Shown here in pieces: positions 40,697 to 61,777 of a stretch of DNA of 64,000 nucleotides. The notes beneath the pieces were generated by a model. It worked only from the letters and a program-made list of their open reading frames with translations, ran no database searches and was not told the DNA's origin. Origin of the DNA: an uncultured Persicobacter sp. (GTDB lineage: Bacteria > Bacteroidota > Bacteroidia > Cytophagales > Cyclobacteriaceae); contig CANMKE010000017.1 in the NCBI GenBank assembly GCA_947498325.1, positions 1-64,000 on the forward strand, written 5' to 3'. Position numbers and translations under genes: made by a program. Numbering within the stretch: position 1 is the first letter of the stretch; every line of letters begins with the position of its first letter.

Positions 40697-40897
40697 TGTG
40701 CAACCAATTTAGTAAAATAGAAAATTAGATTGCACCAGAAAATTTGCGTGGGCGAGATTTATTTTGTCTGTCGCGACCGCATTCGGAACCACCGTGGCCT
40801 CAACGGCTCGGTTGGTATTCTCATGGAATTCCTGATGCATTACAAAGGTAGGGGGGAATGATTTACTTTTCCAAATGTTCAACAAAAAAAATAGCAT

Positions 40898-43248: not shown

Positions 43249-44100
43249 TCAGTCGGTATTCTGCTTTCTGAATTCCAAAGGTGTAATGCCCATTTCTTTT
43301 TTGAAGAAATAGTTAAAGTAAGCAGGTGATTCAAACTCCAATTCGTAAGAAATGCTCTTTACATCCATGTCTGTGAACTTCAGTAAACGTTGCGCATTGA
43401 TCAGAATCATTTGATTAATAAAATGCTTCACATTTTTACCTGTTGCCTTTTTGATGGCGATATTCAGGTAGTTTGGTGTGATGTTCAGTTTATCAGCATA
43501 AAATGATACACGACGCTGTTTCTTGCTGTGCAAAAAGAATAGTGAGAAGAACCTGTTGGTGATGGATTGGTGAATTGAAGGGATTTCAGGCATCCTTTTA
43601 ATTGCACGCTCCAGGATGACAAATACCTCCATGATATACAAGTTGACCATCACCTCGCTATATGGGCGGGCAAGTTCGGTTTCTCTTGTAACTTTCGTGA
43701 AAAGGTTAATGATCGCATCCGTTTCCTCGATGGACAAGCAGATTTTTTGTGTCTGCATGCCTGCACTCATGATGAATACATTGCTGAGTTCCTGCCATGC
43801 GTTCATCAGCAAGTCATTGCTAATATCGATGATGGCAATTTTCCCACCTTCAATATCCACGTTTCTGATTACCTGACCTGGGCCAAATAGGAAAAGATCA
43901 TTGCCTTCGACATTTTGTGTTTCGAAATCAATGCCAATTGATCCGCTTCCTTCCATTACAAGTAAAATCCCAAAGTCATCAAAATGCTTGATGGGCGTTT
44001 TTTTCTGGATTAACGGATCCGTATCTAAAAATGCGATAGAAACTTTTTCTGAGTTTCCTGCGGATTCTACTAATTCATCAACTGATAATTGACTGATCAT
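43249..44100 (-). CDS. AraC family transcriptional regulator (paralog 1)
   Basis: The 283-residue protein has an N-terminal cupin-like sensing domain (about residues 30-100; FGILLVMEGSGSIGIDF, FLFGPGQVI) and a C-terminal AraC DNA-binding domain (about 185-280) with KLNITPNYLNIAIKKATGKNV and SPAYFNYFFKKEMGITPLEFR. It is a close paralog of the next gene upstream: same length and nearly the same C-terminal 100 residues. Target genes are unknown. A good terminator follows 19 bp after the stop. Confidence 0.93.
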   Translation of the reverse strand: MISQLSVDELVESAGNSEKVSIAFLDTDPLIQKKTPIKHFDDFGILLVMEGSGSIGIDFETQNVEGNDLFLFGPGQVIRNVDIEGGKIAIIDISNDLLMNAWQELSNVFIMSAGMQTQKICLSIEETDAIINLFTKVTRETELARPYSEVMVNLYIMEVFVILERAIKRMPEIPSIHQSITNRFFSLFFLHSKKQRRVSFYADKLNITPNYLNIAIKKATGKNVKHFINQMILINAQRLLKFTDMDVKSISYELEFESPAYFNYFFKKEMGITPLEFRKQNTD

Positions 44101-44430
44101 ATAAGTAGGTTTTTAATATTTGCGATCTATTTCATCATCGAAAAACAACTGTCAAAAAAAATTGACTTTCTTCAAAAGTGTATTTTGATGCTTTGTTGCT
44201 ATTATGGCAAAGATCGTTCTACAAATACTGCCTACATTTAGAAAATGCTTCAAAACATATAAAAAGCGATAAAATAATAAAATAAAGGCATCATTTAATT
44301 GGTTTTGTGCAATTAAAATATCCTTAAAAGGTATTAATTTTTATAAATCGACAATTTTGGCCTCCTTGTCGCGGGCTTTTATGGCTGTGTTGTGCCAATT
44401 TTTATGTTGACTATTTTATAGTAGGTTTTA
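44101..44430. other. Intergenic region between AraC paralogs
   Basis: A+T-rich, with no gene and no clear terminator or consensus promoter. It presumably holds the promoter of the downstream AraC gene. Confidence 0.4.
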
Positions 44431-45282
44431 TTATTTGTTTTGTTTTCGGTAATCCAAAGGTGTAATTCCTGTTTCCTTTTTGAAGAAGTAATTAAAATAG
44501 GCAGGGGAATCGAAATCGAGTTCGAAAGCGATTTGCTTGGCGTCCATGGTGGTGAATTTCAGTAATCTTTTGGCGTCAGTAAGGATCATCTCGTTAATAA
44601 AATGCTTCACATTCTGACCTGTGGCCTTTTTCACGGCAATGTTGAGGTAGTTGGGAGTGATATTAAGCTGATCGGCATAAAAGGCGACTTTACGCTCATG
44701 GCTGTTGTTAAGATAAAACAGCGAAAAGAATTTTGCGGTAATGGTTTTAAGCTGATCGGCAGGAAGGGGATTTCTGCGCATTGCTTCTTCAATGGTGATG
44801 AGCGCTTCAACAACCAGGCAATTGAACAGGACACTCTTAAAATGAAAATCCTCGTTCGCTTTACTGATGAGCTTTTCGGTGATGATCCGCAGCGTATCAC
44901 TTTCTTCTTCGTTCAGGCTGATATGAGAGTTGGTATGATCGGGGTTCAATACATATACACCATCGAGTCGGCGCCAGACATCCATAATCACATGGTTCTG
45001 AATATTGATGATCCCGACTTTTCCGTTGGGGATGTTGATGTCTTGAATCACCTGCCCAGGCCCTGCAATGATCAGGTCGTTTTTCTTGATTTGATAGTGG
45101 TCAAAATCAAGTTGTAAAGATCCTTCACCTTCAATGACGTGGAATATTCCAAAGTTCACAAACCTTCCAATAAACTTTTCGGCTTCATCGTTGATGGTTT
45201 GGGTGAGAATAATTGCACTGTAAACATCTTCAAACTCTACGGTATCCTGAGTTTTGAAATTGTAAGGTATCTTTTTGATCAT
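44431..45282 (-). CDS. AraC family transcriptional regulator (paralog 2)
   Basis: The 283-residue protein repeats the layout of the neighbour: cupin-like N-domain (FGIFHVIEGEGSLQLDF, IIAGPGQVIQDI) and AraC DNA-binding domain with QLNITPNYLNIAVKKATGQNV and SPAYFNYFFKKETGITPLDYR. The DNA-recognition helices of the two proteins are almost identical while their sensing halves differ, so they may bind the same sites in response to different ligands. It lies downstream of a 661-bp region without genes. Function is inferred from family only. Confidence 0.93.
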   Translation of the reverse strand: MIKKIPYNFKTQDTVEFEDVYSAIILTQTINDEAEKFIGRFVNFGIFHVIEGEGSLQLDFDHYQIKKNDLIIAGPGQVIQDINIPNGKVGIINIQNHVIMDVWRRLDGVYVLNPDHTNSHISLNEEESDTLRIITEKLISKANEDFHFKSVLFNCLVVEALITIEEAMRRNPLPADQLKTITAKFFSLFYLNNSHERKVAFYADQLNITPNYLNIAVKKATGQNVKHFINEMILTDAKRLLKFTTMDAKQIAFELDFDSPAYFNYFFKKETGITPLDYRKQNK

Positions 45283-46221: not shown

Positions 46222-47649
46222 TTAGCAGGACACCAAATGTGGTTTCTGCTGATACAGGTCCCAAATGAGTTCGCCAAAGAGGGTATTGGCCCAGGCAAAC
46301 CAGCTTCGTGAGAATTTGGTCGGGTCATCTTTGTCGAAGCTTTCATGCATAAAGCCTGTTCCTGCATGGGTTTTCTTCAGCATATCAATACAGAACTTGA
46401 TCTCTTCGTCGCTGGTGGAAGTCATCGCCCGCATGACGATGGCCATCGGCCAGATATTATCTTTCCCCACATGAGGGCCTGTGATTCCTTCTCCTGCTTT
46501 ACCTTTGGCAAAATAGGGGTTCATGTCGCTCAAAAGGAATTTTCGGGTATTTAAATACAAAGGGTCGGTCTTTTCAATAGCGCCTAAATAAGGTAGGGAA
46601 AGGCAGCTTGGAATGTTGCCGTCATCTTCGAGCAACTGATTCACAAAACCATCCACTTCAAAAGGAATCACGGTTCCGATGCCCTTAACCTCCGCGCGCG
46701 CATATATTTTAAGTGCCTGATCCACTTCGTTGGCCAAATCCATACAGGCTTTTGCCAATTGCTGATCCATGTTCATGGCCTTGAGCATTTCAGCAACATG
46801 GCGCAACTCTTCAACAGCAAAATAATTGGAAGGAATCAGGAACGGAAATACCGTGGCATCGTCAGAAGGTCGGAACATAGAGCAAATCAATCCAACAGGT
46901 TTTGTCGGTGCCCCAGCGCCCCAAAGCGGCAGGGTATCTTCCTGCTTGTTTGTTTTACGCATAAAACTATAGGGTCCGTTTCCATCTTTGCGTTGTTGTT
47001 CCTTAAAAGTCTGAACAATCGCCTTGATACTTTGCTCCCAGTTGGCATCGAAAGGAGTGGTGTCACCCGTCGTTTTCCAATAACCATGCGCAAGGCGCAT
47101 AGCATAACAGAGGGAGTCGATCTCCCATTTACGCTCATGCAATTCAGGCTTCATGTCGGTCATGTCCGATGCCCAGTGGCTGACGGTTTTGTCATCTTTG
47201 TTAAAGGCGTTGGCGTACGGATCAATCAGGATGCATTTGGTCTGTCTGTTGATCAGGCCATGAATCATGGTTTTTAGTTTTTTGTCTTTCTGACAAAAAG
47301 GGAGATATGGCCAAACCTGTGCCGTAGAATCCCTGAGCCACATGGCATTGATATCACCCGTAATGATGAAAGTATCTGGCTTGCCATGAATCATGGAATG
47401 ATCAACGGTGGTGTCGAGGGTGTTTGGAAAACAGTTTTCGAACATCCACGCTAATTCAGGATCGGAACAGTCATTTTTAAAAGCTGCAACGGCTTTATCA
47501 ATGGCCTTACTAGTAAAATGTCTTTTTGATTTCTCAGGTCGGTGACTGGTAAATGGCGATACATCCTTTGCGGCAAACGCCATATTAGGTGCCATCGTCA
47601 ATGCTCCTAATCCCAGGCCTGCATTGCGAATAAATTTTCTTCTATTCAT
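46222..47649 (-). CDS. GH125 exo-alpha-1,6-mannosidase
   Basis: Starting at the Met at 47649 the 475-residue protein has a twin-arginine-like signal (NRRKFIRNAGLGLGAL). The body matches glycoside hydrolase family 125 (former DUF1237): SMIHGKPDTFIITGDINAMWLRDSTAQVWPY near residues 84-115, MFRPSDDATVFPFLIPSNYF near residue 255, and GPHVGKDNIWPMAI near 398. GH125 enzymes remove terminal alpha-1,6-mannose, as found in N-glycan cores. It follows the kelch-type regulator gene by 47 bp and is probably in its operon. Confidence 0.93.
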   Translation of the reverse strand: MNRRKFIRNAGLGLGALTMAPNMAFAAKDVSPFTSHRPEKSKRHFTSKAIDKAVAAFKNDCSDPELAWMFENCFPNTLDTTVDHSMIHGKPDTFIITGDINAMWLRDSTAQVWPYLPFCQKDKKLKTMIHGLINRQTKCILIDPYANAFNKDDKTVSHWASDMTDMKPELHERKWEIDSLCYAMRLAHGYWKTTGDTTPFDANWEQSIKAIVQTFKEQQRKDGNGPYSFMRKTNKQEDTLPLWGAGAPTKPVGLICSMFRPSDDATVFPFLIPSNYFAVEELRHVAEMLKAMNMDQQLAKACMDLANEVDQALKIYARAEVKGIGTVIPFEVDGFVNQLLEDDGNIPSCLSLPYLGAIEKTDPLYLNTRKFLLSDMNPYFAKGKAGEGITGPHVGKDNIWPMAIVMRAMTSTSDEEIKFCIDMLKKTHAGTGFMHESFDKDDPTKFSRSWFAWANTLFGELIWDLYQQKPHLVSC

Positions 47650-47696
47650 AAAAAATAACAATTGCTAAAAAGTGGTTGACAGTGAATGCTATAATA

Positions 47697-50366
47697 TTAT
47701 TTCAAGTTAAAGTTTTCAACTTGCTTTTTATATTCTTCTCCAAAGAAGTTGTGGTAACGTTTTTTGAACCTGTTCAACTCCGATTGCGCTTGCCCGATTT
47801 TGTTCAGCTGAAGCAGGGCAAGGATTTTAATTTCAAGGCCCTGTTCATCAAGGTCATCCAAATGCAGAATGGTGTCTGCCAGTTGGATTTTTGCTTTTGG
47901 TGCGGACATTTCTGCCGCAAAATCAGTCAGCAATTTAATGGTATCGCTGACAATAAAATTGTTAATATCGTCAAGCCATTCAGCCTGAAGTGCCGTAGGA
48001 AGCGCTCCACGTCGAATCAGCGACATAATTTGCTGTTGAGTTTCCTTGGAAGTATCGCTGGCCAATTGCGATTTAAGGAACAAGAGTTCGGATAGGTCGC
48101 AATAGGCGTCCCCCGAAAGTTGTAACTTCCATTCCTGTTGCTCATGAATGATTTCTACCCCATCAATTTCATCGAGGATGAGTCGAAGGCGGCGAATAGA
48201 AATCGATCGATTGTTTTTTCCACTGCTTTTTGTCGCCGTAGGCCAAATTAATTCGGTCATTTCTGAGGAGGAAATCCCTCGCCCGTGATTGTACGGATAA
48301 CAGATGATCAGCAATAAAATTTGCTTTAGCTTAGGCGTAATTTTATGTGAGATATCTAATCCCTCCTGGTTAAATACCTCTAAACCACCGAAAAGGAAGA
48401 TGGCGTTTTTTCGTGGGTACTCCACCTTTTGGGGTACGGTTACATTTGCTGAAGCAGGTTCGTTTGTTACCGTGACTGTCTCATTGGTCGGTATAACGGA
48501 TGGCGCTCTTGTTTCTTCTCGCGGTGCAGAAGCCGCAGGTGCAGGGGATACAGGCTTTTTGGTGCTTTTACGTTTATAGAATTTGTAGCCAAAAAATGCC
48601 AATATCAGTGCCACACCAGCCCCCAAGAAAGTATAAAACAGTTTCCAAATCCATTCTGCTGAAGCGGTAGCCGAATTTTCAGGGTGGCGATTTTGATGCG
48701 ATTCCACTGCTTTGTTAAAAGCGGAAGCCTCCATTGGAGGGCCATTGAGGGTGAATATTCCCACATCACCAGTTGCACCTTCAATGGTGGACCTTGTTAC
48801 GGCAACAAACTGACTGAGGCTGTAATCAAAAAAGAGTTTTACATCAGATCGGATATCCTTGAATTTGAAAGGTATGGCATTACTGACGGTAGTGAAACTG
48901 CCATCTTTAATAGCAAATTTTTTCAGTTCAAGCTTGGTGTTTTGATCGTAGGGGTCGAAGGTCAGGGCATAAAAATGCTTCCGGTCAGCATCCAGCACAA
49001 GGCCTTTTGCAGGGACGATCGGGGTATTTTCATTTTCAGATTTTTGCCACAGTCTTTTAACCGTGTAGTTGGTCAGGTCTACTTGATACAGGTCCAAATA
49101 GGTTACCGTACCCAATGCCTGACGGCCATCGTGGTTACCCATTCCTCCAAAAAGAAGGTATTTGTTATCTCCCATATACACCGAAGAAGAGAGGTAGCGC
49201 GGTGGAATGGTGTCGCCTTTAAAGCGGATTTTATTCCACGTTTTTTCTTGGCGGTCATATTTCAGAAAGTGGTTTTTATATTTGAAAAAGCCATAGCCCC
49301 CAAATGTAATGTACTCATCCCTCAGGCTGTCGTAGAGTAAGTTGTGATGCCAGTAGCGCATTTCATTCTGACACACTTTCGTCGTTTCCCACTGATTTTT
49401 TTCCCCGTCGTAATGGCTCAGTTCTCCCTGTCTGAAATCGTAAGAGATGGTCTTTTTAGTGATCGGGTTCCAATAACTGTTGATATATAGCGGATCGATA
49501 GAAAGCCCTGTGTTAAAGGTGGTGCTGTCGAGCGACGATTTGGCAATATTAAATTGGTAGCCGAAATCCTTATTAATAATATGAATGGTATGGCTTGCCG
49601 GCTCAAACGTGATGCCTGGTTTAAAGCAGGACGCCAGGCTGGCAACCTTTTGCCATTTAAAATGGTGATTTGCCTCCCAGGATGGGTGGGAAACATGCCC
49701 TTCAATTTTTCCTTTGGTGGGATGAGCAAGGTTGCCCTGAATTTCGTTCAGCGGCCAAAAATGCTTTGTTTTATTATCGACGAGCAGTTCAATATTTCTG
49801 ACCGACATGTCGGCAACATCGGTGGTTACAAATTTGCCATCGCGATGTTTTCCGAAATAAATTTCTACTTTATTGTTTTTTTGCGACCATACAGCCTGTG
49901 GGATGTCGATACGGCGAGTCTTTCCGAGGTAGGAAATGGACAGTTTATTGTGGCTATCCACCATCAGTTTAATGGGTTGCCACTGAATGATTTGTTCCTC
50001 CTGATGTGTTAGGGGAAAGGTCGTGATCAGCTTTTTGGCACCCACGAGTATCAGTTCCTCTTCTCCTTCAGCACTGCTTGGGGGGCTGTAAGAGAGGTCA
50101 ATGGTGTTTTTATCATTGAAAATGATTCTTACCACATTGCCAAAAAAGGGGGCGGGTCGGAGTTTCAGGTCAAAGGATAACGACATGTTTTTTTCAGCAC
50201 TGAAGGCGTGGTCATGTCCAAAGGAAATCCCTGTTCGGTTATTGTTTTCGGCCTCGTGGCTGATAAATCTTAAACCGTTTGAATTACTGCTTTGAGCCAC
50301 TGCAAAAGCAGGGCTAAGAAGGAGTAATATATAAAAAATGATATTTTGTGTATGTTTTTTCAACAC
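47697..50366 (-). CDS. Membrane-spanning LamG-kelch-SARP/BTAD-like one-component regulator
   Basis: The 889-residue protein starts with a signal peptide (cleavage near residue 25). A LamG-like sandwich (about 40-210, ending KHFWPLNEIQ) and a kelch-like propeller follow (about 230-545; DEYITFGGYGF, NKYLLFGGMGN). One membrane helix spans about 573-595. After a proline-rich linker comes a cytoplasmic winged-helix region (about 655-750: IFLFGGLEVFNQEG, SSEMTELIWP, NNRSISIRRLRLILDEI) and a BTAD-like helical tail. It would sense a periplasmic ligand and bind DNA directly. It heads an operon with GH125 and lies beside the GH92 genes, so it is the likely regulator of the mannan/N-glycan locus. Confidence 0.85.
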   Translation of the reverse strand: MLKKHTQNIIFYILLLLSPAFAVAQSSNSNGLRFISHEAENNNRTGISFGHDHAFSAEKNMSLSFDLKLRPAPFFGNVVRIIFNDKNTIDLSYSPPSSAEGEEELILVGAKKLITTFPLTHQEEQIIQWQPIKLMVDSHNKLSISYLGKTRRIDIPQAVWSQKNNKVEIYFGKHRDGKFVTTDVADMSVRNIELLVDNKTKHFWPLNEIQGNLAHPTKGKIEGHVSHPSWEANHHFKWQKVASLASCFKPGITFEPASHTIHIINKDFGYQFNIAKSSLDSTTFNTGLSIDPLYINSYWNPITKKTISYDFRQGELSHYDGEKNQWETTKVCQNEMRYWHHNLLYDSLRDEYITFGGYGFFKYKNHFLKYDRQEKTWNKIRFKGDTIPPRYLSSSVYMGDNKYLLFGGMGNHDGRQALGTVTYLDLYQVDLTNYTVKRLWQKSENENTPIVPAKGLVLDADRKHFYALTFDPYDQNTKLELKKFAIKDGSFTTVSNAIPFKFKDIRSDVKLFFDYSLSQFVAVTRSTIEGATGDVGIFTLNGPPMEASAFNKAVESHQNRHPENSATASAEWIWKLFYTFLGAGVALILAFFGYKFYKRKSTKKPVSPAPAASAPREETRAPSVIPTNETVTVTNEPASANVTVPQKVEYPRKNAIFLFGGLEVFNQEGLDISHKITPKLKQILLLIICYPYNHGRGISSSEMTELIWPTATKSSGKNNRSISIRRLRLILDEIDGVEIIHEQQEWKLQLSGDAYCDLSELLFLKSQLASDTSKETQQQIMSLIRRGALPTALQAEWLDDINNFIVSDTIKLLTDFAAEMSAPKAKIQLADTILHLDDLDEQGLEIKILALLQLNKIGQAQSELNRFKKRYHNFFGEEYKKQVENFNLK

Positions 50367-50392: not shown

Positions 50393-50422
50393 CAAATTTA
50401 TTTATTTAAATAAACTTAGCAA
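50393..50422 (-). promoter_or_regulatory. Promoter of kelch-type regulator gene (TTG-N19-TAAATTTG)
   Basis: On the minus strand TTG at 50422-50420, a 19-bp spacer and TAAATTTG at 50400-50393 fully match the Bacteroidota promoter consensus. Transcription would start near 50386, 20 nt before the ATG. The spacer holds TTTATTTAAATAAA, a perfect 14-bp palindrome (50401-50414) that could be an operator. Confidence 0.7.
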
Positions 50423-50458: not shown

Positions 50459-50487
50459 AAAAAAAGGAGATGGAAAACCCACCTCCT
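50459..50487 (-). terminator. Rho-independent terminator of GH92 gene
   Basis: On the minus strand GGAGGTGG and CCATCTCC pair (one G-T pair) around GTTTT, followed by about nine T. It lies 23 bp after the GH92 stop codon and insulates the regulator promoter. Confidence 0.85.
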
Positions 50488-50509: not shown

Positions 50510-52783
50510 TTATGCATCAACTTTTCCGTTTGGTCGCTGGCTGACTGCCGAAGCCCATTTTTTATTGGGGGTATTGCCCATTTCAAAAACGATTTTCGCA
50601 CCACCGCTAATTTCCTTATGCGTCAGGTAAGCGCGGTTCAGTGGTTTCCCATTGATGGTCGCTGACTGAATATAGAAGTTTTCATCTGAGAGGTTGTTGG
50701 CCTTAACGACAAACGATTTCCCGTGCTCCAGCTGAATGCTTACTTCATCAAACAAAGGCGTGCCAATCGCATAAATCCCGCTTGCCGGATTTACAGGGTA
50801 AAAGCCCATGGCTGAGAAAACATACCATGCCGACATCTGTCCGCAGTCTTCATTACCACAAATGCCATCTGGCGTTGGTTTTTGTAAATCGCGGCAAATT
50901 TCATGAATGGTTTTCTGTGCCTTCCAAGGTTCGCCGGCATAGTTGTACAGGTACGCAACATGGTGACTTGGCTCATTACCGTGCACATAAATACCTTTCA
51001 GTCCAGAAATCCACTCTGGCCATCCGCCTTTAGGCATAGGGTGTTCCTTGTTGAAAAGTTCATCGAGTTTGTCGGTAAACGCTTTGTCGCCACCCATCAA
51101 TTGAATCAGTCCGGAAACATCCTGTGGAACAAACCATGAATACTGCCAAGCATTACCTTCCATAAACATGTGATTGGTGTACGACATCGGATCGAAATCT
51201 TTCACCCATTGGCCATCGCTGTTTTTTGCGCGCATAAAGCCGCTCGTTTTATCATAGTTATTGATAAAGTTCTGTGAACGCTGGGTAAAATAGTCGTAGT
51301 CGGCTGTTTTCCCCAAATCCTTTGCCATGCGGGCAATACACCAATCATCATAGGCATACTCTAAAGTGTAAGATACCGAAGATTCTTGTTCATCCTGCGC
51401 CACATAGCCCAGCTTTTTATAGCTTTTCAGCCCGTGGGCATCCTGCATGGCAGAGTTTTTCATTGCAGTGTAAGCCAGTTCAGCATCCACATCTTTCAGC
51501 AAACCCTTAAAGTAAGCATCCACAATTACCGGTACGGCATGGTAGCCAATCATACAATTGGTTTCGTTTCCTGCAAAAGACCATACGGGCAGTAAGCCGC
51601 TTTCATTGTAATGATCAAGCATTGAAGCCACCATATCTTTCACTTTGGCAGGCTCCGTAATGGTATATAGCGGGTGGAGCGCCCGGAAGGTGTCCCACAA
51701 AGAAAAGGTGTCGAACCTGGTATGACCATCCGCAACTTTCGTTTGACCATCCACACCTTTGTACTGACCGTTATGATCGCTGAAGGTGGTTGGGGCCATC
51801 ATTGTTTGATATAATGCCGTGTAGAAGGACGTTCTCGCGGCCTCATTTTTTGTTTTCACCTGAATGGGGTTCAGTGCCTGCTCCCACTCCTGAGCCGCCT
51901 TTTGACGGGTCGCTTCGAAATCAAATCCTGCTAATTCCGCTTCCATGTTCTCTTTGGCATTGTCAACACTTACGCTCGAAAGAGCGGTTTTGACCATGAC
52001 CACTTCGTTGGCTGCAGTTTCAAATTCCATATGGGCAATGACCTTTCGGTTCACTTCCTTACCGTTGATTTTGAATGTGCGGTCTTCAAACTTTACCGCC
52101 TTGAATGGCTTGGAAAGGCGGGTGTAAAAATATACCCGCTGATCCGGTGCCCAGCCTTCTGAATGGCGATAGCCGACGAGCGTCTGCTCATCCACCAATT
52201 CAATGGAGGCATCGGTTGTTTTATCCCAGTTCATGGCCCTGTTCAAATCCAGCTTCACCTCGGCGTGATCAGCCTCTGGGAAAGTATATTTTTGCAGCCC
52301 CACACGGTTGGTAGCGGTTAATTCCACTTTGATATTGTAATCCTTCAGTAAGACTTCATAATAGCCTGGTTTAGAAGTTTCCTGATCATGGGAAAACACA
52401 GAATATACCCCGAGGTTTTCCTTTGGGGTAGATTTTGCCGGATGGGTAAAAGGCATGAAGGCAATATCATACAAATCGCCGACACCCGTGCCGCTGAAAT
52501 GGGTATGGCTGAAGGAGGCGATCGTGGTATCCTCGTAGAAGTAACCAGCGATTCTGTCCCAGCCAGAGGTACCATTGTCGGGGCTGAGCTGCACCATACC
52601 ATGGGGTATGGTAGCACCAGGGAAGGTGTGTCCGTAGCCACCCGTTCCAATAAAGGGATCTACAAATTGGGAGACCGATGAATCGTGCTTGGTGGTGGTT
52701 TGCTGAGGTGCATTACAGGCACTTAGCATCGCAATAGCAGACACGATGAGCGGTTTGAAAAATCGACTGGAAGACCTATTCAT
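50510..52783 (-). CDS. GH92 alpha-mannosidase lipoprotein
   Basis: I start at the Met at 52783 (MNRSSSRFF), giving 757 residues with a lipoprotein signal (AIAMLSAC, Cys about 23). Family 92 landmarks are GTGGYGHTFPGATIPHGMVQLSPD near residues 45-68, the GNEPSHHVAYLYNY block near residue 600 and GNEDCGQMSAWYVFSAMGFYPVNP near 642. GH92 enzymes are calcium-dependent exo-alpha-mannosidases acting on high-mannose N-glycans. The linkage preference cannot be fixed by eye. It follows the second GH92 gene on the same strand after 128 bp. A surface or periplasmic location is expected. Confidence 0.94.
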   Translation of the reverse strand: MNRSSSRFFKPLIVSAIAMLSACNAPQQTTTKHDSSVSQFVDPFIGTGGYGHTFPGATIPHGMVQLSPDNGTSGWDRIAGYFYEDTTIASFSHTHFSGTGVGDLYDIAFMPFTHPAKSTPKENLGVYSVFSHDQETSKPGYYEVLLKDYNIKVELTATNRVGLQKYTFPEADHAEVKLDLNRAMNWDKTTDASIELVDEQTLVGYRHSEGWAPDQRVYFYTRLSKPFKAVKFEDRTFKINGKEVNRKVIAHMEFETAANEVVMVKTALSSVSVDNAKENMEAELAGFDFEATRQKAAQEWEQALNPIQVKTKNEAARTSFYTALYQTMMAPTTFSDHNGQYKGVDGQTKVADGHTRFDTFSLWDTFRALHPLYTITEPAKVKDMVASMLDHYNESGLLPVWSFAGNETNCMIGYHAVPVIVDAYFKGLLKDVDAELAYTAMKNSAMQDAHGLKSYKKLGYVAQDEQESSVSYTLEYAYDDWCIARMAKDLGKTADYDYFTQRSQNFINNYDKTSGFMRAKNSDGQWVKDFDPMSYTNHMFMEGNAWQYSWFVPQDVSGLIQLMGGDKAFTDKLDELFNKEHPMPKGGWPEWISGLKGIYVHGNEPSHHVAYLYNYAGEPWKAQKTIHEICRDLQKPTPDGICGNEDCGQMSAWYVFSAMGFYPVNPASGIYAIGTPLFDEVSIQLEHGKSFVVKANNLSDENFYIQSATINGKPLNRAYLTHKEISGGAKIVFEMGNTPNKKWASAVSQRPNGKVDA

Positions 52784-52911
52784 GATTGTATAGAATGTTA
52801 ATAAAAACCACAATTCAAGCTAAAATATTGATTGTTGTTGATATAGGTTTCTGAATAATAAAAATAATAACTTTTTTAAGAAAAATTAGCGCAGTGTTTG
52901 TTCAATACGCA

Positions 52912-55182
52912 CTAACTCAACTCTTCATGGAATTTCGATGATGGACGATCTGCTTTCGGCGTACCAAATTGTTTGTTTGGTTTGTCGCCCATGGTGAAGG
53001 TCAGTTTTCCGCCTTTCATAATGTCTTTATGCAGAATATATGACTTTGAATAATCCTGCCCGTTCAGACTTACCGACTGAATATAAATATTTTTTGCGGA
53101 CTGATTTTCCGTGGCTATCGAGAAACTCTTGCCATTTTGCAGTTGAATAGTTGCCGAATTAACTGAAGGGCTGCCAAATACATACATGCCGTTCATCGGG
53201 TTCACGGGGTACATCCCCATGGAAGAGAAAATATACCAGGCCGACATCTGGCCACAGTCCTCATTACCTGGCAAACCTGCAGGGCCGTCGTTGAACATGG
53301 TACTGCAAATTTCGCGAATGCGCTCCTGTGTTTTCCAGGCCTGGCCGGCATAATTAAACAAATACGCTGTGTGGTGGCTTGGCTCATTGCCCTGAGCATA
53401 CTGACCGATAAGGCCTGAGATGTCAGGAGAAGCATTTTCGCCCAAATCGCTGCTCATCGTAAATAAGGTGTTCAGTTTATTGACAAAAGCTTCATCTCCA
53501 CCCAAAAGGTCGATCAGCCCTTCAACATCCTGTGGTACAAGCCACAAATATTGCCATGCATTTCCTTCACAATAATCATCGTCTCGGTGACTTGAGGCAA
53601 TAGGGTTGAAAGGCGTAGTCCATGAGCCGTCGGTTTTTTTGCCTCGGAAAAAACCAGTTTCTTTATCAAAATATTCTGTATACAGCTTGGCGCGCTTGCT
53701 GTAATAGTCAAAATCTTCCTGATGCCCTAAAGCTTTGGCCATTTGTGCAATTCCCCAGTCGTCGATAGCATATTCAAGGGCTTTGGCAACAGATTCCCCC
53801 ACCTTGTCTGCCGGGATGTACTGGATTTTTGTGAGGTAGGGAATGCCTTCACGGTCGGCATTGGCAGTGGTTTTCATCGCTTCAAGGGCCAGTTCTGCAT
53901 CAAATCCTCGAATACCTTTAAGGTAAGCATCGGCAATTACAGGGACGGCATGGTAGCCGACCATCGTGTTGGTTTCATTTCCAGCCAACGACCAAACGGG
54001 CAAGAGGCCACTTTCTTTGTACTGCGCTAAAAAGCTGTTCACCATATCCGCAACTTTATCTGTTTGTGTGATGGTGAAAAGCGGGTGATTGGCGCGGTAG
54101 GTGTCCCAAAGTGAAAAGGTAGAGTAGTTATTAAAATCTGCCCGATGCACTTTGCGGTCAGTTCCGCGATAGGTTTTGTCGTGGTCATTATAAAGGTTAG
54201 GGGCAGAGAGGCTGTGGTAAACCGCTGTATAAAAAGTACGAAGGCTTTTATCGTCAAGGGTGGTCACCTCAATTTTCTCTAATTCCTTTTGCCATTTTTG
54301 GTTGGCTTGTGCAACAACCTGCTTAAAGTTCCATGCAGGAATTTCCGCTTCCATATTTTTTTCTGCCTGCGCAATGCTTACCGGCGAAAGGGCAACTTTT
54401 ATCTCTACCGTAGGATTTTTTTCAGTATCGAAGAAAAATACGCCTTTTACAAAGTTGGATTGTAAATCCTGACCATCAACCGGCTTGGTGTCTTTATATA
54501 GCTGAAAGTCCGTAATTGGCTGGTTGGTTTGGGCATAGAAATACAGTTGTTGGTCGCTTGACCATCCGGTGGAGTTTCTTTTGCCTACAATTGTATGATC
54601 GTCGATGACTTTTATTTCACAATCTTTGGCCAAATCCCAGCCGATACCTTCCCGAAGATCCATAATCAGGTGGGCATTGTCGTGTTGCTGAAAGGTATAT
54701 TTATGAAATCCTACCCGCTCCGAAGCCGTCATTTCAGCCTTAATATGATAATCGAGCAAATCTACCGCATAATAACCCGCTTTGGCTTCTTCACGGCCGT
54801 GGGTGAATCTTGAGCGGTAGCCGGTGTCTGGATTTTCTACGGATCCTTTCACCACCTTTACCTCTCCTGTATTTGCCATGATGAGGATATCTCCCATATC
54901 GCCAATGCCCGTGCCACTCAGGTGGGTGTGGGCAAATCCGACAATTGAGCTGTCAGCATAATTATAGCCCGAGCACCAATCCCAGCCATTGTTAAAATTG
55001 GAAGGCCCGAGGGAAACCATTCCGAAGGGAACCATGGCGGAAGGGTGGGTGTGCCCATTGCCAGAGGTGCCAATCATTGGATCGACATATTGTGTCAATG
55101 ATGCTGTTTTCGGTGTTTGTTTGGGTTGCTGTATGCAGCTGCACAAAGCCAATAGCGCTATATAAAAAGTTTTCTTCATCAT
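52912..55182 (-). CDS. GH92 alpha-mannosidase lipoprotein (second)
   Basis: The 756-residue protein has a lipoprotein signal (ALLALCSC). It shows the same GH92 blocks as its neighbour: MIGTSGNGHTHPSAMVPFGMVSLGP near residues 37-61, GNEPSHHTAYLFNY near residue 597 and GNEDCGQMSAWYIFSSMGMYPVNP near 637. The two differ clearly over their length, so they are old paralogs that probably cut different mannose linkages. It is divergent from susC across 552 bp and is probably the first gene of a two-gene GH92 transcript. Confidence 0.94.
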   Translation of the reverse strand: MMKKTFYIALLALCSCIQQPKQTPKTASLTQYVDPMIGTSGNGHTHPSAMVPFGMVSLGPSNFNNGWDWCSGYNYADSSIVGFAHTHLSGTGIGDMGDILIMANTGEVKVVKGSVENPDTGYRSRFTHGREEAKAGYYAVDLLDYHIKAEMTASERVGFHKYTFQQHDNAHLIMDLREGIGWDLAKDCEIKVIDDHTIVGKRNSTGWSSDQQLYFYAQTNQPITDFQLYKDTKPVDGQDLQSNFVKGVFFFDTEKNPTVEIKVALSPVSIAQAEKNMEAEIPAWNFKQVVAQANQKWQKELEKIEVTTLDDKSLRTFYTAVYHSLSAPNLYNDHDKTYRGTDRKVHRADFNNYSTFSLWDTYRANHPLFTITQTDKVADMVNSFLAQYKESGLLPVWSLAGNETNTMVGYHAVPVIADAYLKGIRGFDAELALEAMKTTANADREGIPYLTKIQYIPADKVGESVAKALEYAIDDWGIAQMAKALGHQEDFDYYSKRAKLYTEYFDKETGFFRGKKTDGSWTTPFNPIASSHRDDDYCEGNAWQYLWLVPQDVEGLIDLLGGDEAFVNKLNTLFTMSSDLGENASPDISGLIGQYAQGNEPSHHTAYLFNYAGQAWKTQERIREICSTMFNDGPAGLPGNEDCGQMSAWYIFSSMGMYPVNPMNGMYVFGSPSVNSATIQLQNGKSFSIATENQSAKNIYIQSVSLNGQDYSKSYILHKDIMKGGKLTFTMGDKPNKQFGTPKADRPSSKFHEELS

Positions 55183-55734
55183 TTTATTATGCTGAAATTG
55201 ATTTCAAAAATTACATATAAACAAACCGTTGCATGAAAATTCAATTGGCTTGCTTTCAGGGTGGTTGATGTTCGACAATTTTACGTGCCGGTAATTCATG
55301 TCCCTGTTTTTCAAATGTAGGAGCACTTAGGTACAAAATGTGGTGAGGAGTTTGATACAAAAGGGTTACATACTGAGTTTTTCGCAAAGTTTTGCCTGAT
55401 TTTCAGGTTTTTTTTGTGCTTTTAGGAAGTTGAAGGCGGTAGGAGGTGACCGACTCAGTAGTTGAAAATCCCAAAGCTTCGAAAATTGCAAAAAAGATGA
55501 AAGTTTAAAAATTAAGAATGAAAATGGATTACATTATTAACAATATAGATTATATATGGGTTAAAAATTAAAAAATTCATAAAATTTACGCTCAAAAATT
55601 TGTGAAGTTTTAGGATTATTTAATTCTTGCAAACGTATTCGGAACGGAGCATTTCACTTGATCTTTTTACCTACAACTCAATTGGCTTCCTACGAACACA
55701 GATCTTAATTTTTTTATTTACAAAACGTCACATT
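55183..55734. other. Divergent control region between GH92 and SusC genes
   Basis: No gene is visible. A TACATTTG sequence (minus strand, 55319-55312) fits the -7 consensus but has a TTG only 14 bp upstream. The half next to susC is very A+T-rich. The open frame upstream of 55735 is leader, since the signal peptide begins there. This is where the regulator at 47697-50366 would be expected to bind. Confidence 0.4.
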
Positions 55735-58700
55735 ATGGTCCAGATAAGACTACTATTTTGGAGTCTTTTATTGTTGAGCCCATTTGCTTCAATGGCACAA
55801 GGTTTCACAGTAAAAGGTACAGTTAAAGATGCAGCAGATAATTCTGCATTACCTGGGGTAAACATTACGATCGTAGGATCATCAAAAGGAGCAGTTACTG
55901 ACTTCGATGGTGCCTACACTTTGGAGCTTACAGACAGAAATGCAGAATTACAATTCTCATTTATCGGTTACAAAGCTCATGTTGAAAAGATCGGCAACCG
56001 ATCAATAATCGATGTCAATCTTTCTCCTGAAGTCACACAATTAAATGATGTTGTGGTTACGGCCTTGGGTATTGAGCGTGAAGAGCGTTCTTTGGGTTAT
56101 GCTGTTTCGGAATTGAAAGCTGAAGAAATGGGGGTAACCGCCACGGCTCCTTCGGTAATGAATAACCTTCAGGGTAAAGTGGCCGGGGTTCAGATCTCGC
56201 CAGTATCAGGTGGGGCAGGTTCATCAGCAAGTGTGGTTATTCGTGGTAGTGCCGTTTTGGGTGGATCTAACCAGCCGTTGTATGTTATTGACGGGGTGCC
56301 AATGTCAAACAACCAATTGCAGTCCGCAGACGATAAAGACAACGGTGGTACCGATTCGGGTAACGGTTTGTCGGGCATCAACCCAGAAGACATCGAGAGC
56401 ATGTCGGTATTGAAAGGTCCTGCAGCAACCGCACTTTATGGTTCTCGTGCGATCAATGGGGTAGTTTTGATTACGACCAAGAAAGGTACACAACAAGCAG
56501 GCTGGGGAATTGACTTCAACTCTGCAGTTACAGTAGATATGTTGGGCATTACGCCAAACCAACAAACACAATACGGACAAGGAACCGACGGTCGTGGAGT
56601 TTCTGCAGATGATGCTAAAGAAACCCTTTCAATGTGGGGTGAGCGCATTACCGGACAGCGAAATAATGGTTATTTTGACGGTAAAGAGCGTGTGATGGCT
56701 GCTCAGAATAACTACAAAAACTTCTTCCGTAACGGGGTTTCTTTGAACAATAACATTGCCTTGACTGCTGGTAATGATAAATCAACGGTTCGTTTGTCTT
56801 ATGGTAATTTTGACAATACGGGAATGGTGGAAAACTCTACTTATCAGCGTAACTCTTTCAACTTGCGTGGAACCACCAAATTGATCAACGATAAACTGAC
56901 TTTGGATTCTCGTGTTACTTATGTGAATGAGAAAGCGCTGAACAGAATGAATTTGGGTAATTCGGTGAACAACTATATGGGCATGATGTTGAGCATCCCG
57001 ACTACTACTTCTACCGAATGGCTGCGCAACTACAAAAACGAAAGCGGCTTGCCGATCGGTTACAATAACAAAGAAGCGAACCCTTATTGGTACATCAACG
57101 AAGTACGTAACGAGGATGAGTCCAACCGTATGATCGGAATGGTAAGTGCCAACTACCAAATCACTGAAGCCTTGTCTGTATTGGCACGTGCGGGTCGTGA
57201 TAACAAATCATACCGTCAGAATGTGATCGATCCAATCGGAACACCATTCTATGAAAAAGGACGTGCTTTTGAGCGTACCTCTTTGGAAAATGAAGACAAC
57301 TTCGATGCGATGCTGACTTTCCACAAAAAATTCGGTGACTTCGACATTACCTCTAACCTGGGTACTTCTTATATGCACCAATTGAGAAAATATACCGATG
57401 TGGGTTCTTCGGAATTCTCTTCGGATATCATTCAAAACCCTGGTGCGGGATCTAACCCATTCATGGAGTTCAGAACTTACGAAAGAGCGATTTCTTCGGT
57501 ATTCGGAACGGCTTCATTGGGCTATAAAGGTTATTTGTTCTTGGATGTAACGGCTCGTAATGACTGGTCATCGACTTTGCCAATGAACAACAACTCTTTC
57601 TTCTACCCATCGGTTTCGGGTTCATGGGTATTCTCTGATATGGATTGGAATACACCAGACTGGTTATCATTCGGTAAATTGAGAGCTTCTTGGGCACAGG
57701 TTGGTTCAGACACCGATCCTTACAATTTGGCTTTGCAATATGAGTTGGATTCATGGCCTCATCCAAAAGGACAGAATGGTTTCAATATGGGAGGAATTAA
57801 AGGGCATGAGGTGCCTAATTCACAATTGAAGCCTGCCATTTCTACTTCTTATGAATTAGGTTTCGATTTGAGATTGTTCAACAACCGCATTACTGTTGAT
57901 GGTGCTTACTACAAGCAGTCGGCGGTAGATCAGATCTTGAACGTGGACATTTCTGGCGCTTCAGGTTACACAAGTGCATGGATCAACGCTGGTGAGATCA
58001 CCAACCAAGGTTTTGAATTGATGGTTTCGGCGAAAGCAATTCAAACCAATGACTTCACGTGGGAAACAACGGTAAATGGTTCTTATAATCAAAACGAAGT
58101 AGTATCTCTTTCTCCGGAAGTAAATCAGTTCTTGTTGTTGCCAACTACTGGTTCGGTTTCGGTACAGGCGATTCCTGGTCAGGCTTATGGGGTGATCCTG
58201 GGTAAAGTTGCTCAGACGGACGGACAGGGCAACTATGTAGTAGATGACAATGGTCGTGTGCAGTTGCAGGATGATCCACAAATCATCGGTAATGGTGTTC
58301 AGCCTTGGATGGCAGGTTGGAGAAACACCTTCACTTACAAAAACTTCTCTGTTTCGGCTTTGATTGACGGTAAGTTTGGAGGGAATATCTACTCAAACAC
58401 CAACGCTTCGATGTACTCATCTGGTCGCCATGAGGCTACTTTGATTGGTCGTGAAGAGTTCAATAACGGTGGATCTTGGAATCCCGGCAACTTGGTGCAG
58501 GCTAACGGTGACGGAACATTCACGCCATTTACCGAAGGGGTGAACCCACAAAACTATTACGGTTCATTGGCGGGCGTTTCAGACCAACACGTATATGATG
58601 CATCTTTCATCAAATTGCGTGAGGTATCGATCTCTTACCGCTTGCCAAACTCGGTATTGGACAAAACACCATTCAAGAACTTGTCGGTTTCAGTGATCGG

Positions 58701-58842
58701 AACCAACTTGGCTTACCTTTGGAATAATGTAGAAAATATTGATCCAGAAGCATCCTTTACGTCAGGTAATGGTCAGGGTATTGAAAGCTCTAACTTGGCT
58801 ATTCCTCGCACTTTAGGTTTCAAATTAAATGCTAACTTTTAA
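55735..58842 (+). CDS. SusC-type TonB-dependent outer membrane transporter
   Basis: From the Met at 55735 the product has 1035 residues and a signal peptide (LLLLSPFASMAQ). A carboxypeptidase-regulatory-like domain comes first (FTVKGTVKDAADNSALPGVNI near residue 24), then the plug with LNDVVVTALGIEREERSLGYAVSEL near residue 103 (TonB box and SusC signature) and ALYGSRAINGVVLITTKKG near 231, then the barrel. No N-terminal extension for an anti-sigma factor is present. It imports oligosaccharides with SusD, here probably mannose-rich N-glycan fragments. susD starts 11 bp downstream. Confidence 0.96.
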   Translation: MVQIRLLFWSLLLLSPFASMAQGFTVKGTVKDAADNSALPGVNITIVGSSKGAVTDFDGAYTLELTDRNAELQFSFIGYKAHVEKIGNRSIIDVNLSPEVTQLNDVVVTALGIEREERSLGYAVSELKAEEMGVTATAPSVMNNLQGKVAGVQISPVSGGAGSSASVVIRGSAVLGGSNQPLYVIDGVPMSNNQLQSADDKDNGGTDSGNGLSGINPEDIESMSVLKGPAATALYGSRAINGVVLITTKKGTQQAGWGIDFNSAVTVDMLGITPNQQTQYGQGTDGRGVSADDAKETLSMWGERITGQRNNGYFDGKERVMAAQNNYKNFFRNGVSLNNNIALTAGNDKSTVRLSYGNFDNTGMVENSTYQRNSFNLRGTTKLINDKLTLDSRVTYVNEKALNRMNLGNSVNNYMGMMLSIPTTTSTEWLRNYKNESGLPIGYNNKEANPYWYINEVRNEDESNRMIGMVSANYQITEALSVLARAGRDNKSYRQNVIDPIGTPFYEKGRAFERTSLENEDNFDAMLTFHKKFGDFDITSNLGTSYMHQLRKYTDVGSSEFSSDIIQNPGAGSNPFMEFRTYERAISSVFGTASLGYKGYLFLDVTARNDWSSTLPMNNNSFFYPSVSGSWVFSDMDWNTPDWLSFGKLRASWAQVGSDTDPYNLALQYELDSWPHPKGQNGFNMGGIKGHEVPNSQLKPAISTSYELGFDLRLFNNRITVDGAYYKQSAVDQILNVDISGASGYTSAWINAGEITNQGFELMVSAKAIQTNDFTWETTVNGSYNQNEVVSLSPEVNQFLLLPTTGSVSVQAIPGQAYGVILGKVAQTDGQGNYVVDDNGRVQLQDDPQIIGNGVQPWMAGWRNTFTYKNFSVSALIDGKFGGNIYSNTNASMYSSGRHEATLIGREEFNNGGSWNPGNLVQANGDGTFTPFTEGVNPQNYYGSLAGVSDQHVYDASFIKLREVSISYRLPNSVLDKTPFKNLSVSVIGTNLAYLWNNVENIDPEASFTSGNGQGIESSNLAIPRTLGFKLNANF

Positions 58843-58853
58843 GATTGATCAAC

Positions 58854-60803
58854 ATGGGAATTAAAAAATATATCTTGAGTGCAGCCGTTATCGCTGCCTC
58901 CCTTTCATCTTGTACACAAGGGTTCGAGGACATGAACCAAAACCCTTGGACAGCCAACAAATTGGACGTTAAACATCAGTTTGCTTACGCCCAGGCGAAA
59001 ATGTACTCACATGGTCATGAAGGTTTCCGTGGAAACTTGATCATGTCTCAGGTATTGTCTGGTGTGGCGGGCTGTCGTTATACTTCTGGTGCTGGATTTA
59101 ACCGTGCAGACGCCTATACCAATGCTACATGGGAGGTGATCTACCGAGATGTGATGAAAAATATCGTTGATGCGCGCACCAAATTGGAAGCTGAAAACAC
59201 AGACGGTTCCAAAGCAGCCCAGTTGGCACAGTTGAATGTAGTGAAGAACATTGCTTTGTTGAGAGCGACTTTACTTTATGGGGATATTCCATTCCACGAA
59301 GCAGGGCAGGGTTTCCATGACCGTAATTTCTTCCCGAGCTATGATACGCAAAAGGAAGTGTTGAATTCAATGGTCGAGGAGATCAAAGCCGATCGTGATG
59401 CAATTTTGGCATCCAAGGCAACAGATCTATTAGACTATGATCTTTATTTTGAAGGAGATCAAGCTTCTTGGGGACGTTTGGCCAACTCATTATTGATGCG
59501 CATTGGTTTGACCATGTCGTCAGCGGACGAGGCAAAAGGCAAAGAAGTATTCAAAGAGGCTTATGAGAACAAAGCGGGATATATCAGCAGCTTGGCAGAA
59601 TCAGCCGTTTTGGAACATACAGAATTGGGTGGCCCTTGGGGGCAACACGTGAACGGTTCCGGCGTAGCGAATGAAGGTCGTGTGGGTGGTTTTGCGCATG
59701 CTTTTATGTCATCGGTTACTCTGAAATCCATGCAGGAACTTCAGGATCCTCGTTTGTTCTGGGTAACAACTCCTTTGGATATGCGCTCGGGATCATCTAA
59801 AGCCTTTGTGAACATGCCGGATTACGATCCATTCCAAATGGCGGAAAAAGAAGGTGAGCCATTTAAGCCAGTCTCTTTGCGTGGTTTGCGTCCTGGAGAT
59901 GTAAACAATGGCCGTCAGGGTACATTCGTACAGGATGTTACCGATGGTGATGGAAATGTATCGAAAGAGGTTCAGGTGGCTGGTCTTTGGGTGAATAATA
60001 TGCAAAAAATTGTAGGGGAAGATACCCTTACGGTTTTAGGTACCAATTATAAGCGGGATTTGGATGATGATGGCCGTTTTATGATTTTGGCAGGGATCAA
60101 TCCTGAAACGATCTTGGGTTCATTGTCTCCAACGATGGTCATGTCTGCGGATGAAGTTCACTTCATGATTGCTGAGGCCGCACAACGTGGCTGGGTAGGC
60201 GCAAGTGTAGCGGATGAGTTGAAAACAGCGATTGAGATGGCTTTCGACAAATACCCAACATTCTACCCTGGTCAGTCGGTGGTTACCAGCTTGATTAATA
60301 ACTATAAAGCAAGCACCGGTAAGGATTATGATTACGCTGCAGCGGTAACGGCTTATGTGGATGAGGTAATGGCTGAATTCAATGGTGCCGGTAAATTCGG
60401 TGACTTGTTCCAGGATAAATTGGACATCATTATTTATCAGCACTGGTTGTCGCAATTGGGTAATGGTTACAAAGCGTATGCAATGTGGAACCGTACGCAT
60501 TACCCTTCAGTAGTGAAAGACCAGTTCGTGGGCAGTGACAGAGATGTATCGTTGCCAGTTTATACTGACAATCCAATCCTGACGGGCAACTATACGCCAA
60601 ACAGTTATCAGGAGCAGGAATTCCACCGCGGTGGCGTAACCAATGGCGTTCGTCCATCACGTTTCCCTTATCCAGACAGAGAATTGACGGTGAATGCAGC
60701 GAAGGTTTCTGAAGCCATGAACCGTCAGCGTTCCGACGCCAACGAAAGTTCTATTGACTTCATCGGTGTAAAACAATGGTTCTCGTTTAACGGAAAGCAC
60801 TAA
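58854..60803 (+). CDS. SusD/RagB-type nutrient-binding lipoprotein
   Basis: The start is the ATG at 58854, 11 bp after susC; a TTG at 58845 is less likely. The 649-residue protein has a lipoprotein signal (AASLSSC, Cys about 20) followed by QGFEDMNQNP, as in SusD-like proteins. The helical TPR-like framework (residues about 90-200; NVVKNIALLRATLLYGDIPFHEAGQG) and a C-terminal SusD domain follow (EVHFMIAEAAQRGW near residue 436). It is longer than classical SusD. It caps the SusC barrel and binds the glycan. Confidence 0.94.
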   Translation: MGIKKYILSAAVIAASLSSCTQGFEDMNQNPWTANKLDVKHQFAYAQAKMYSHGHEGFRGNLIMSQVLSGVAGCRYTSGAGFNRADAYTNATWEVIYRDVMKNIVDARTKLEAENTDGSKAAQLAQLNVVKNIALLRATLLYGDIPFHEAGQGFHDRNFFPSYDTQKEVLNSMVEEIKADRDAILASKATDLLDYDLYFEGDQASWGRLANSLLMRIGLTMSSADEAKGKEVFKEAYENKAGYISSLAESAVLEHTELGGPWGQHVNGSGVANEGRVGGFAHAFMSSVTLKSMQELQDPRLFWVTTPLDMRSGSSKAFVNMPDYDPFQMAEKEGEPFKPVSLRGLRPGDVNNGRQGTFVQDVTDGDGNVSKEVQVAGLWVNNMQKIVGEDTLTVLGTNYKRDLDDDGRFMILAGINPETILGSLSPTMVMSADEVHFMIAEAAQRGWVGASVADELKTAIEMAFDKYPTFYPGQSVVTSLINNYKASTGKDYDYAAAVTAYVDEVMAEFNGAGKFGDLFQDKLDIIIYQHWLSQLGNGYKAYAMWNRTHYPSVVKDQFVGSDRDVSLPVYTDNPILTGNYTPNSYQEQEFHRGGVTNGVRPSRFPYPDRELTVNAAKVSEAMNRQRSDANESSIDFIGVKQWFSFNGKH

Positions 60804-60907: not shown

Positions 60908-61030
60908 CGCTTATTGAACTGAAAATTAAAGTGTATGAGTCCAGGTAATCAGGGGTGTAACTCTAATTTAACCCACAGGATTGATATTGGATGAGGAATA
61001 CATGGGAGATTGATCAATATTATTTTTTCG

Positions 61031-61777
61031 ATGAAGCAGTTAGAAATTTGTGTGTACAGCCTTGAATCAGCCCTAACGGCACAGGCCAATGGTGCTGACC
61101 GTGTGGAGCTTTGCATGGGGCAGTTTGAAGGTGGAATTACCCCGAGTATGGGTTTAATTCAGCAGGTAAAAAAACACTTAACCATAGGGGTAAATGTGAT
61201 CATCCGACCGCGAGGAGGAGATTTCGTCTATACTCCGCAAGAAGTGGAAGTGATGCTTACCGATATTGAAATGGCTAAAAGCGCGGGCGCCGATGGGGTT
61301 GTTTTTGGCGCACTTTTGCCTAATGGTGCGCTTGATGTGGCCACCTGTCAGCGATTGGCACATGCGGCCGAGGGAATGGACATGACCATCCACCGAGCTT
61401 TTGATATGAGCAATGACCTTCCGAAGGCGCTTGAAGCATTAATTGAAATGGGCTTCAGCCGGGTACTGACCTCTGGTGGCTACAATACTGCGCCCGAGGG
61501 TATGGCCGTGTTGCAGCAATTGGTACAACAGGCCGATGGCAGACTCAGCATTATGGCGGGCAGCGGGGTAAGTGCGGATAATGCCCACGATTTACTGATG
61601 GCGGGCATTGAGGAATTACACCTCTCGGCAATGCATGCCTGGGACAGCCCGATGACCTATCAGAACCCTCAGATTTCGATGGGCAAGGAGGGAGGCATAC
61701 CTGAATATACTCGGTATGGTGCCGACGGGAAAAAAGTGGCGGCCGTTCGTGCTATCATGGATCAGTTCAATCAATAA
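61031..61777 (+). CDS. cutC: CutC family protein
   Basis: The start at 61031 (MKQLEICVYSLESAL) gives 248 residues; the frame from 61010 adds seven residues without support. The TIM-barrel protein has the family blocks GADRVELCMGQFEGGITPS near residue 23, NVIIRPRGGDFVYT near 57 and FDMSNDLPKALEALIEMGFSRVLTSGG near 123. CutC was named for copper homeostasis, but its biochemical role is uncertain. It is 12 bp from the PNGase F gene, so a role in glycan breakdown is possible. Confidence 0.93.
   Translation: MKQLEICVYSLESALTAQANGADRVELCMGQFEGGITPSMGLIQQVKKHLTIGVNVIIRPRGGDFVYTPQEVEVMLTDIEMAKSAGADGVVFGALLPNGALDVATCQRLAHAAEGMDMTIHRAFDMSNDLPKALEALIEMGFSRVLTSGGYNTAPEGMAVLQQLVQQADGRLSIMAGSGVSADNAHDLLMAGIEELHLSAMHAWDSPMTYQNPQISMGKEGGIPEYTRYGADGKKVAAVRAIMDQFNQ

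Follow-up and report, generated by a model that had tools for sequence, protein, structure and literature searches.

Which protein controls the glycan genes of this locus, and could a single membrane-spanning chain do so? The window, that is, the whole 64,000-nucleotide stretch of Persicobacter DNA that was analysed, contains the SusC/SusD genes and the three mannosidases seen in the initial annotation (one GH125 and two GH92 genes; Table 1), and a third GH92 gene lies at contig position 65098-67422. The gene for a kelch-containing membrane protein sits between the GH125 gene and the two GH92 genes in the window, and it is divergent from the SusC-SusD-CutC-PNGase F genes. Elsewhere in the window there is an open reading frame of 3170 codons (9809-19321, plus strand) and a SAM-I/IV riboswitch above its gathering score (40750-40843, minus strand).

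Table 1. Features of the glycan locus and of the regulator gene, in window positions.
Feature	Position	Strand	Basis or remark
Two tandem AraC-family genes	43249-44100, 44431-45282	-	Pfam
GH125 alpha-mannosidase	46222-47661	-	Pfam E 2.8e-163
Regulator gene	47697-50366	-	889 aa; predicted secreted sensor, one membrane helix, cytoplasmic domain of SARP type
BTAD-like helical domain, about residues 757-879	47730-48098	-	Model, fold matches, hhalign
OmpR-type winged helix, about residues 653-752	48111-48410	-	Model, fold matches, hhalign
Recognition-helix motif NNRSISIRRLR, residues 718-728	48183-48215	-	Typical of the window protein's sub-clade
Flexible linker, about residues 598-650	48417-48575	-	Model; mostly low pLDDT
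Predicted membrane helix, about residues 573-597	48576-48650	-	Hydropathy and model
Kelch propeller, residues 233-546	48729-49670	-	Pfam and fold matches
All-beta N-terminal domain with weak LamG likeness, about residues 30-232	49671-50279	-	Model secondary structure; weak Pfam matches in relatives
Putative signal peptide, hydrophobic, residues 1-22	50300-50366	-	Model helix 2-22; hydropathy 6-24
-7-type box TAAATTTG upstream of regulator	50393-50400	-	Begins 34 bp before start codon; motif match
Terminator-like hairpin and T run after GH92 gene	50465-50487	-	Consensus match only
GH92 glycosidase	50510-52813	-	Pfam E 2.5e-187
GH92 glycosidase	52912-55182	-	Pfam E 9.9e-188
-7-type box TACATTTG	55312-55319	-	Begins 137 bp before GH92 start; motif match
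SusC-type transporter	55627-58842	+	Pfam and TIGR04056
SusD-like lipoprotein	58845-60803	+	Pfam
CutC-family gene	61010-61777	+	Between SusD and PNGase F, within the glycan locus
Peptide-N-glycosidase F	61790-63043	+	Pfam

Domain architecture of the kelch regulator

The regulator gene is a stop-free reading frame of 889 codons with a GTG start, and another genome of the same species encodes the protein at 99% identity. A terminator-like hairpin separates the gene from the GH92 gene and, since this hairpin and the TAAATTTG box both precede it, the regulator gene probably has its own promoter. The full-length model of the protein has a mean pLDDT of 86.2 and a pTM of 0.64. Hydropathy exceeds the threshold in two stretches, residues 6-24 and 576-594, and the model places a membrane helix at residues 562-597, in agreement with the single helix originally described at about residues 573-595. 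The protein is predicted to be secreted up to this helix, and a membrane segment and a DNA-binding domain of SARP fold would thereby be joined in one regulator chain.

The assignment of the secreted half to the kelch repeats is borne out by a Pfam match over residues 315-435 (E 2e-12, slightly below the curated cut-off) and by a modelled propeller at residues 233-546, whose top VIA match has a Z of 21.4 and an rmsd of 3.7 over 275 aligned residues. The LamG-like character ascribed to this half has weak support: Pfam matches occur in relatives (Laminin_G_3 in 3/47, best E 1.5e-4, and 3keto-disac_hyd in 4/47), whereas the window protein itself has no LamG-type Pfam match. In a PDB profile search, the sole weak match of the N-terminal domain was Tpn50 (E 0.043), which was not used. 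Five proteins (L026, L027, L127, L130, and L132) carry the same tail behind a LamG domain and lack kelch; in these, LamG sits in the secreted part, in the place of kelch, and the segment ahead of it has no assigned family. The sensor thus seems to be exchangeable.

The nearest solved kelch folds, LZTR1, KLHDC2, KLHDC3, and KEAP1, are recorded as complexes with proteins or peptides, which could mean that the propeller senses a protein or peptide rather than a sugar, for example one of the transporters or enzymes encoded in the locus. We consider this somewhat unlikely, given that the N-terminal domain leans weakly toward carbohydrate-type beta sandwiches and that the five LamG proteins share the tail without the propeller. 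Sugars are probably sensed outside the inner membrane by the propeller domain.

The initial annotation had suggested an HMM search of residues 640-889 against Trans_reg_C and BTAD; in this region Pfam finds no family up to E 1, so this check taken alone would have led to a wrong dismissal of the winged helix. Scans of the whole window protein against Pfam and NCBIfam returned only kelch or nothing, and a PDB sequence search with it returned kelch proteins and, at weak E-values, a viral polymerase and a dynein chain. When the tail alignment was used as a profile against the PDB, there was no match up to E 5. We do not count these missing matches against a winged helix, because the question was answered by comparison of folds and profiles.

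Structure prediction had also been suggested as a check. The tail model, built from 66 aligned sequences, has a mean pLDDT of 94.2. Foldseek against the PDB returned six chains at E <0.001, all of them EmbR or AfsR, and VIA-align matched AfsR and EmbR over the whole tail (Z 16.3-14.7, rmsd 4.6-4.8, 228-232 residues); the rows that follow have a Z of at most 10.2 and consist mostly of ScpB and of isolated OmpR-type winged helices about 90 residues long. Since the AfsR/EmbR matches span 228-232 residues, both the winged helix and BTAD are present in the tail, with BTAD directly after an OmpR-type winged helix. This order is also supported by hhalign, in which the tail profile aligned with five BTAD proteins over 229 columns (99.3%, E 1.6e-20); these five belong to the distant tail-profile matches in other genomes, each above Pfam's BTAD cut-off and without kelch. 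When the tails were scanned singly at E <=1, BTAD (14/66, each match below reliable significance) and Trans_reg_C (13/66) were the two commonest Pfam families. Thus, the winged helix and BTAD-like tail read from the sequence at the outset are well founded, and the prediction that the tail is a SARP-type domain draws support from the structure, from the profile alignment, and from an operator of SARP geometry in related loci (see below). From the fold, the NNRSISIRRLR helix would contact DNA.

Distribution and genomic context of the family

No relatives were found by a scan with the single window protein. Broader searches placed relatives in 26/148 genomes of the same taxonomic family, a count that includes the window genome and two genomes matched through the tail alone, and at 150 places in a species-representative collection, of which 80 were analysed. 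The 80 were found through kelch motifs, and the collection sample is therefore biased to kelch forms; alignments A3 and A4 took 46 and 65 of them, respectively. Their genera include Bacteroides, Coprobacter, Dysgonomonas, Pedobacter, Mucilaginibacter, Chitinophaga, Cyclobacterium, and Emticicia, among others. In a phylum-wide sample, 13/296 genomes were positive, counting the window genome and remote matches, which indicates that the family is wide but patchy in Bacteroidota. A second copy of the regulator is encoded in the same genome (L134, 8737-16278); it is 32% identical and lies directly downstream of a SusC-SusD pair, with a histidine kinase gene beyond SusC.

The initial annotation had called for a survey of whether such fusions sit beside susCD, and we find that they often do. 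Among 27 related loci, all from other genomes after exclusion of 4/31 places (the two in the window genome and two near-copies in a sister genome), a SusC-SusD pair occurs in 16, compared with 9/40 random windows (p 0.0026). GH92 falls within a 20-kb window in 10/27 related loci vs 0/40 (p 3e-5), and one or the other in 22/27 vs 9/40 (p 2e-6); the enrichment of SusC-like transporters alone is not significant (16/27 vs 15/40, p 0.066). The 40 control windows were drawn from ten contigs, and one that overlapped a regulator was replaced. In the collection, for which there is no control set of its own, GH92 is found in 33 of 80 loci, a SusC-SusD pair in 48, and either in 64. The nearest upstream gene is divergent in 62/78 loci, and a Pfam scan of the nearest upstream genes covered 62/78 loci.

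A kelch protein with a genuine SARP domain need not control the genes around it. The two AraC-family genes end 0.94 kb from the GH125 gene, and thus the earlier statement that no AraC regulator is present in the locus depends on the boundary chosen. The glycan genes of the window could be run by this AraC pair (43249-45282) while the kelch protein controls another locus or only a few genes, and no operator was found in the window. However, the kelch gene sits inside the mannosidase cluster, its relatives are repeatedly found near GH92 and SusC-SusD, and its second copy in this genome is next to a SusC-SusD pair. We regard control by the AraC pair as improbable, and favor the kelch protein.

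The sensor-helix-SARP architecture, as predicted from sequence, recurs across Bacteroidota. Sensor and tail are separated by exactly one helix in 78/79 proteins, and the charge is more positive on the cytoplasmic side of the helix in 75/79. An N-terminal hydrophobic segment exceeds the threshold in only 36/79 proteins, with start codons guessed throughout, and an additional hydrophobic stretch occurs elsewhere in 9/79. The flexible linker of about 50 residues that follows the helix would permit cleavage, such that the cytoplasmic domain could act after proteolytic release; the membrane regulators covered by a published survey are, however, described in its available text as acting from the membrane (PMC10269533), and release seems to us quite improbable compared with action in the tethered form.

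A predicted repeat operator in related loci

If the tail is a SARP domain, where would it bind? A scan of repeat distances that assumed no sequence, covering 56 divergent upstream regions and 53 distances, gave the highest ranks to 23 bp (z 3.9) and to 11 bp (z 3.4), and the core shared by the repeats is TTAA. At least three TTAA at a spacing of 11/12 bp are found in 32/56 divergent regions, whereas 200 rounds of shuffling gave a mean of 0.9 and never more than 4. There are 81 TTAA pairs at 11 bp where 10 are expected. The core was noticed and its frequency measured on the same regions, although the distance scan came earlier, and neither the distance to the -7 box nor the control loci played any part in defining it. 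TTAA triples occur in 36/74 regions upstream of the regulator and in 0/295 intergenic regions of random control loci. They are also present downstream of the regulator (14/63), in other regions within 2.5 kb (8/54), and in the rest of the loci (23/288). When the regulators were clustered and the first member of each cluster was taken, a triple was present in 11/25 (50% identity), 20/38 (60%), and 26/46 (70%).

The -7 box of Bacteroidota has the consensus TAnnTTTG. Of the exact boxes within 100 bp of 95 sites, 16/29 start exactly 11 bp past the last TTAA; these 16 stem from 13 loci, some of them closely related. With at least 5/6 matches the count at 11 bp rises to 33, followed by 13 at 34 bp and 9 at 10 bp, and a box of this quality at the 11-bp distance is present at only 32/95 sites. 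Two loci, L086 and L089, have seven and five TTAA repeats at 11/12-bp spacing, with a -7-type box 11 bp later. In whole genomes (15/16 named genomes were searched, 7 of which already had a known exact site), triple plus box gave 18 sites in 11/15 genomes and the reversed pattern gave 0, and 16 genomes from the same taxonomic family in which the regulator had no match yielded 1 site and 1 reversed match. Taking the unit as ATTAATG, the distance to the -7 box becomes 9 bp, which is near the SARP rule: according to the available text of two reports, the direct repeats bound by SARPs are spaced by 11 or 22 bp and the last of them lies 8 bp from the -10 element (PMC10936776), and the main operator of PimR has three repeats (PMC5930380). 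The predicted TTAA operator closely resembles this published operator. Computationally, these data argue strongly for a SARP-like activator at the TTAA promoters, for which the product of the adjoining gene would be the natural candidate.

That another regulator common in the same loci binds the triples, and that the kelch-protein tail does something else, would accommodate the triples in 23/288 intergenic regions elsewhere and the 42/84 main-type regulators without one upstream, but is very unlikely given that the rate peaks beside the regulator and is zero in the control regions, that the repeat spacing is that of SARPs, and that presence of a triple tracks the type of recognition helix.

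This last comparison bears directly on the window. A TTAA triple lies within 600 bp upstream in 42/84 regulators of the main type, in 0/6 of the window protein's sub-clade, and in 1/11 of the GVT type (p 0.0012, with kinship uncorrected, L035 filed in the wrong class, and L061 left out). The window protein belongs to a clade of six distinct members (support 100/99), and the recognition helices of this sub-clade resemble NNRSISIRRLR, whereas those of the TTAA group are of the NNR-VN type. No TTAA triple was found anywhere in the window, nor was a TTAA-type operator found in the two stretches that had been marked for footprinting (55183-55734 and 50393-50422). Among all 4-mer cores at 11/12 bp, none recurs in more than two loci, either in a set of eight (L179, L200, and the six sub-clade loci) or in ten GVT-type loci. 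A candidate repeat at 60945 (shuffle P 0.01 among 42 tests) was discounted. A TTAC triple was seen once, between SusD and the second regulator copy (L134, about 11336-11364). The simplest reading is that the window protein uses a different repeat sequence. Its own operator was not found there, and it is position and kinship that suggest its control of the window locus.

Proposed mode of action and comparison with known regulators

We propose that the kelch protein is a one-component inner-membrane activator with a periplasmic sensor and a SARP tail, the relatives of which act on a TTAA-type operator, and we assign this reading a probability of about 0.7. The N-terminal beta domain and the kelch propeller would bind a signal in the periplasm, most likely an oligosaccharide from the mannose-rich glycan degraded by the neighbouring enzymes; the link to mannose is suggested by the genomic context, that is, the mannosidases and PNGase F of the locus and the association of GH92 with related loci. 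Based on predicted structure and profile homology, the membrane helix and flexible linker would pass the signal to the cytoplasmic SARP domain. Binding to DNA is suggested by the fold and, for the family, by the operator as well: in related loci, SARP domains would most likely sit side by side on at least three TTAA repeats. The repeats end just upstream of the -7 box, a position from which the bound domains may help RNA polymerase to initiate the glycan-use operon, as AfsR does in Streptomyces; the geometry is computed, and binding and activation are what we infer from it. The window protein would be expected to act likewise, on a different repeat. Given that the geometry of TTAA and -7 box closely resembles a SARP operator, members of the family are probably activators of glycan-use operons that work from the membrane.

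The initial annotation was right on the architecture, cautious on function, and incomplete on the locus, where it passed over the two AraC genes. Its SARP/BTAD assignment stands on structure, on profiles, and on the operator of related loci, whereas the window itself is without a TTAA operator. The observation extends from one protein to a family spread across the phylum, for which an operator is predicted.

No membrane-tethered SARP or kelch regulator in Bacteroidota was described in the literature that we consulted, which was mainly open-access, and the membrane-tethered SARP family is apparently undescribed so far. A survey of membrane regulators relied, in its available text, on Pfam DNA-binding models (PMC10269533), and neither "SARP" nor "kelch" occurs in its main text. 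Because the tails seldom match Pfam, the kelch-SARP family would largely escape such a survey. What emerges is a membrane-tethered variant of SARP regulators that Pfam-based surveys would be expected largely to miss and that is plausibly a fourth class of polysaccharide-locus regulator besides the SusR-like, HTCS, and ECF types. We lean toward the fuller statement that this fourth class in Bacteroidota consists of tethered SARPs with exchangeable kelch or LamG sensors, largely overlooked in Pfam-based surveys, that activate from the membrane through triple repeats phased with the -7 box. Such a class, whose members range from Bacteroides and Coprobacter to Chitinophaga and Pedobacter, could account for loci with no apparent regulator, and the predicted operator makes the family testable in many species. 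Furthermore, SARP activation, which is known from soluble regulators of antibiotic production, would move to the membrane, and it would become directly testable how an activator anchored there gains access to a promoter alongside RNA polymerase.

The available text of one study names SusR-like, HTCS, and ECF regulators as three Bacteroidetes-specific types at glycan loci, and describes the SusR-like proteins as membrane regulators with a periplasmic sensor and a C-terminal DNA-binding part (PMC3878776). The kelch regulator shares all of these features with the SusR-like type. DUF6377 was presumed to represent SusR-like regulators, and the tail showed no kinship to 12 DUF6377 proteins (hhalign 0.3%, E 0.21). 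Membership of the HTCS was likewise rejected, as the window protein has no histidine kinase, receiver, or AraC domain (Pfam E <=0.1) and none is among the 22 Pfam families listed for 25 relatives. The ECF sigma/anti-sigma type was rejected on the same grounds, with no sigma or anti-sigma domain found by Pfam in the window protein or among the families listed for the 25 relatives.

The kelch regulator has in common with ToxR, CadC, and TcpP a sensor, a membrane helix, and an OmpR-type winged helix in a single chain, and winged helices of regulators of this type are among the fold matches of the tail (Z about 8). In ToxR and CadC, however, the DNA-binding domain is N-terminal, whereas here the order of the domains is reversed and BTAD is added. 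With the SARPs AfsR, EmbR, and PimR, the kelch regulator shares the winged helix and BTAD across the whole tail and, in related loci, direct repeats 11 bp apart that are in phase with the promoter. Other known SARPs are, to our knowledge, soluble, with the SARP domain at the N-terminus. AfsR itself is soluble with an N-terminal SARP domain, according to the available text of PMC10936776. In contrast, the SARP domain predicted here is C-terminal, preceded in the chain by a secreted kelch sensor and a membrane helix.
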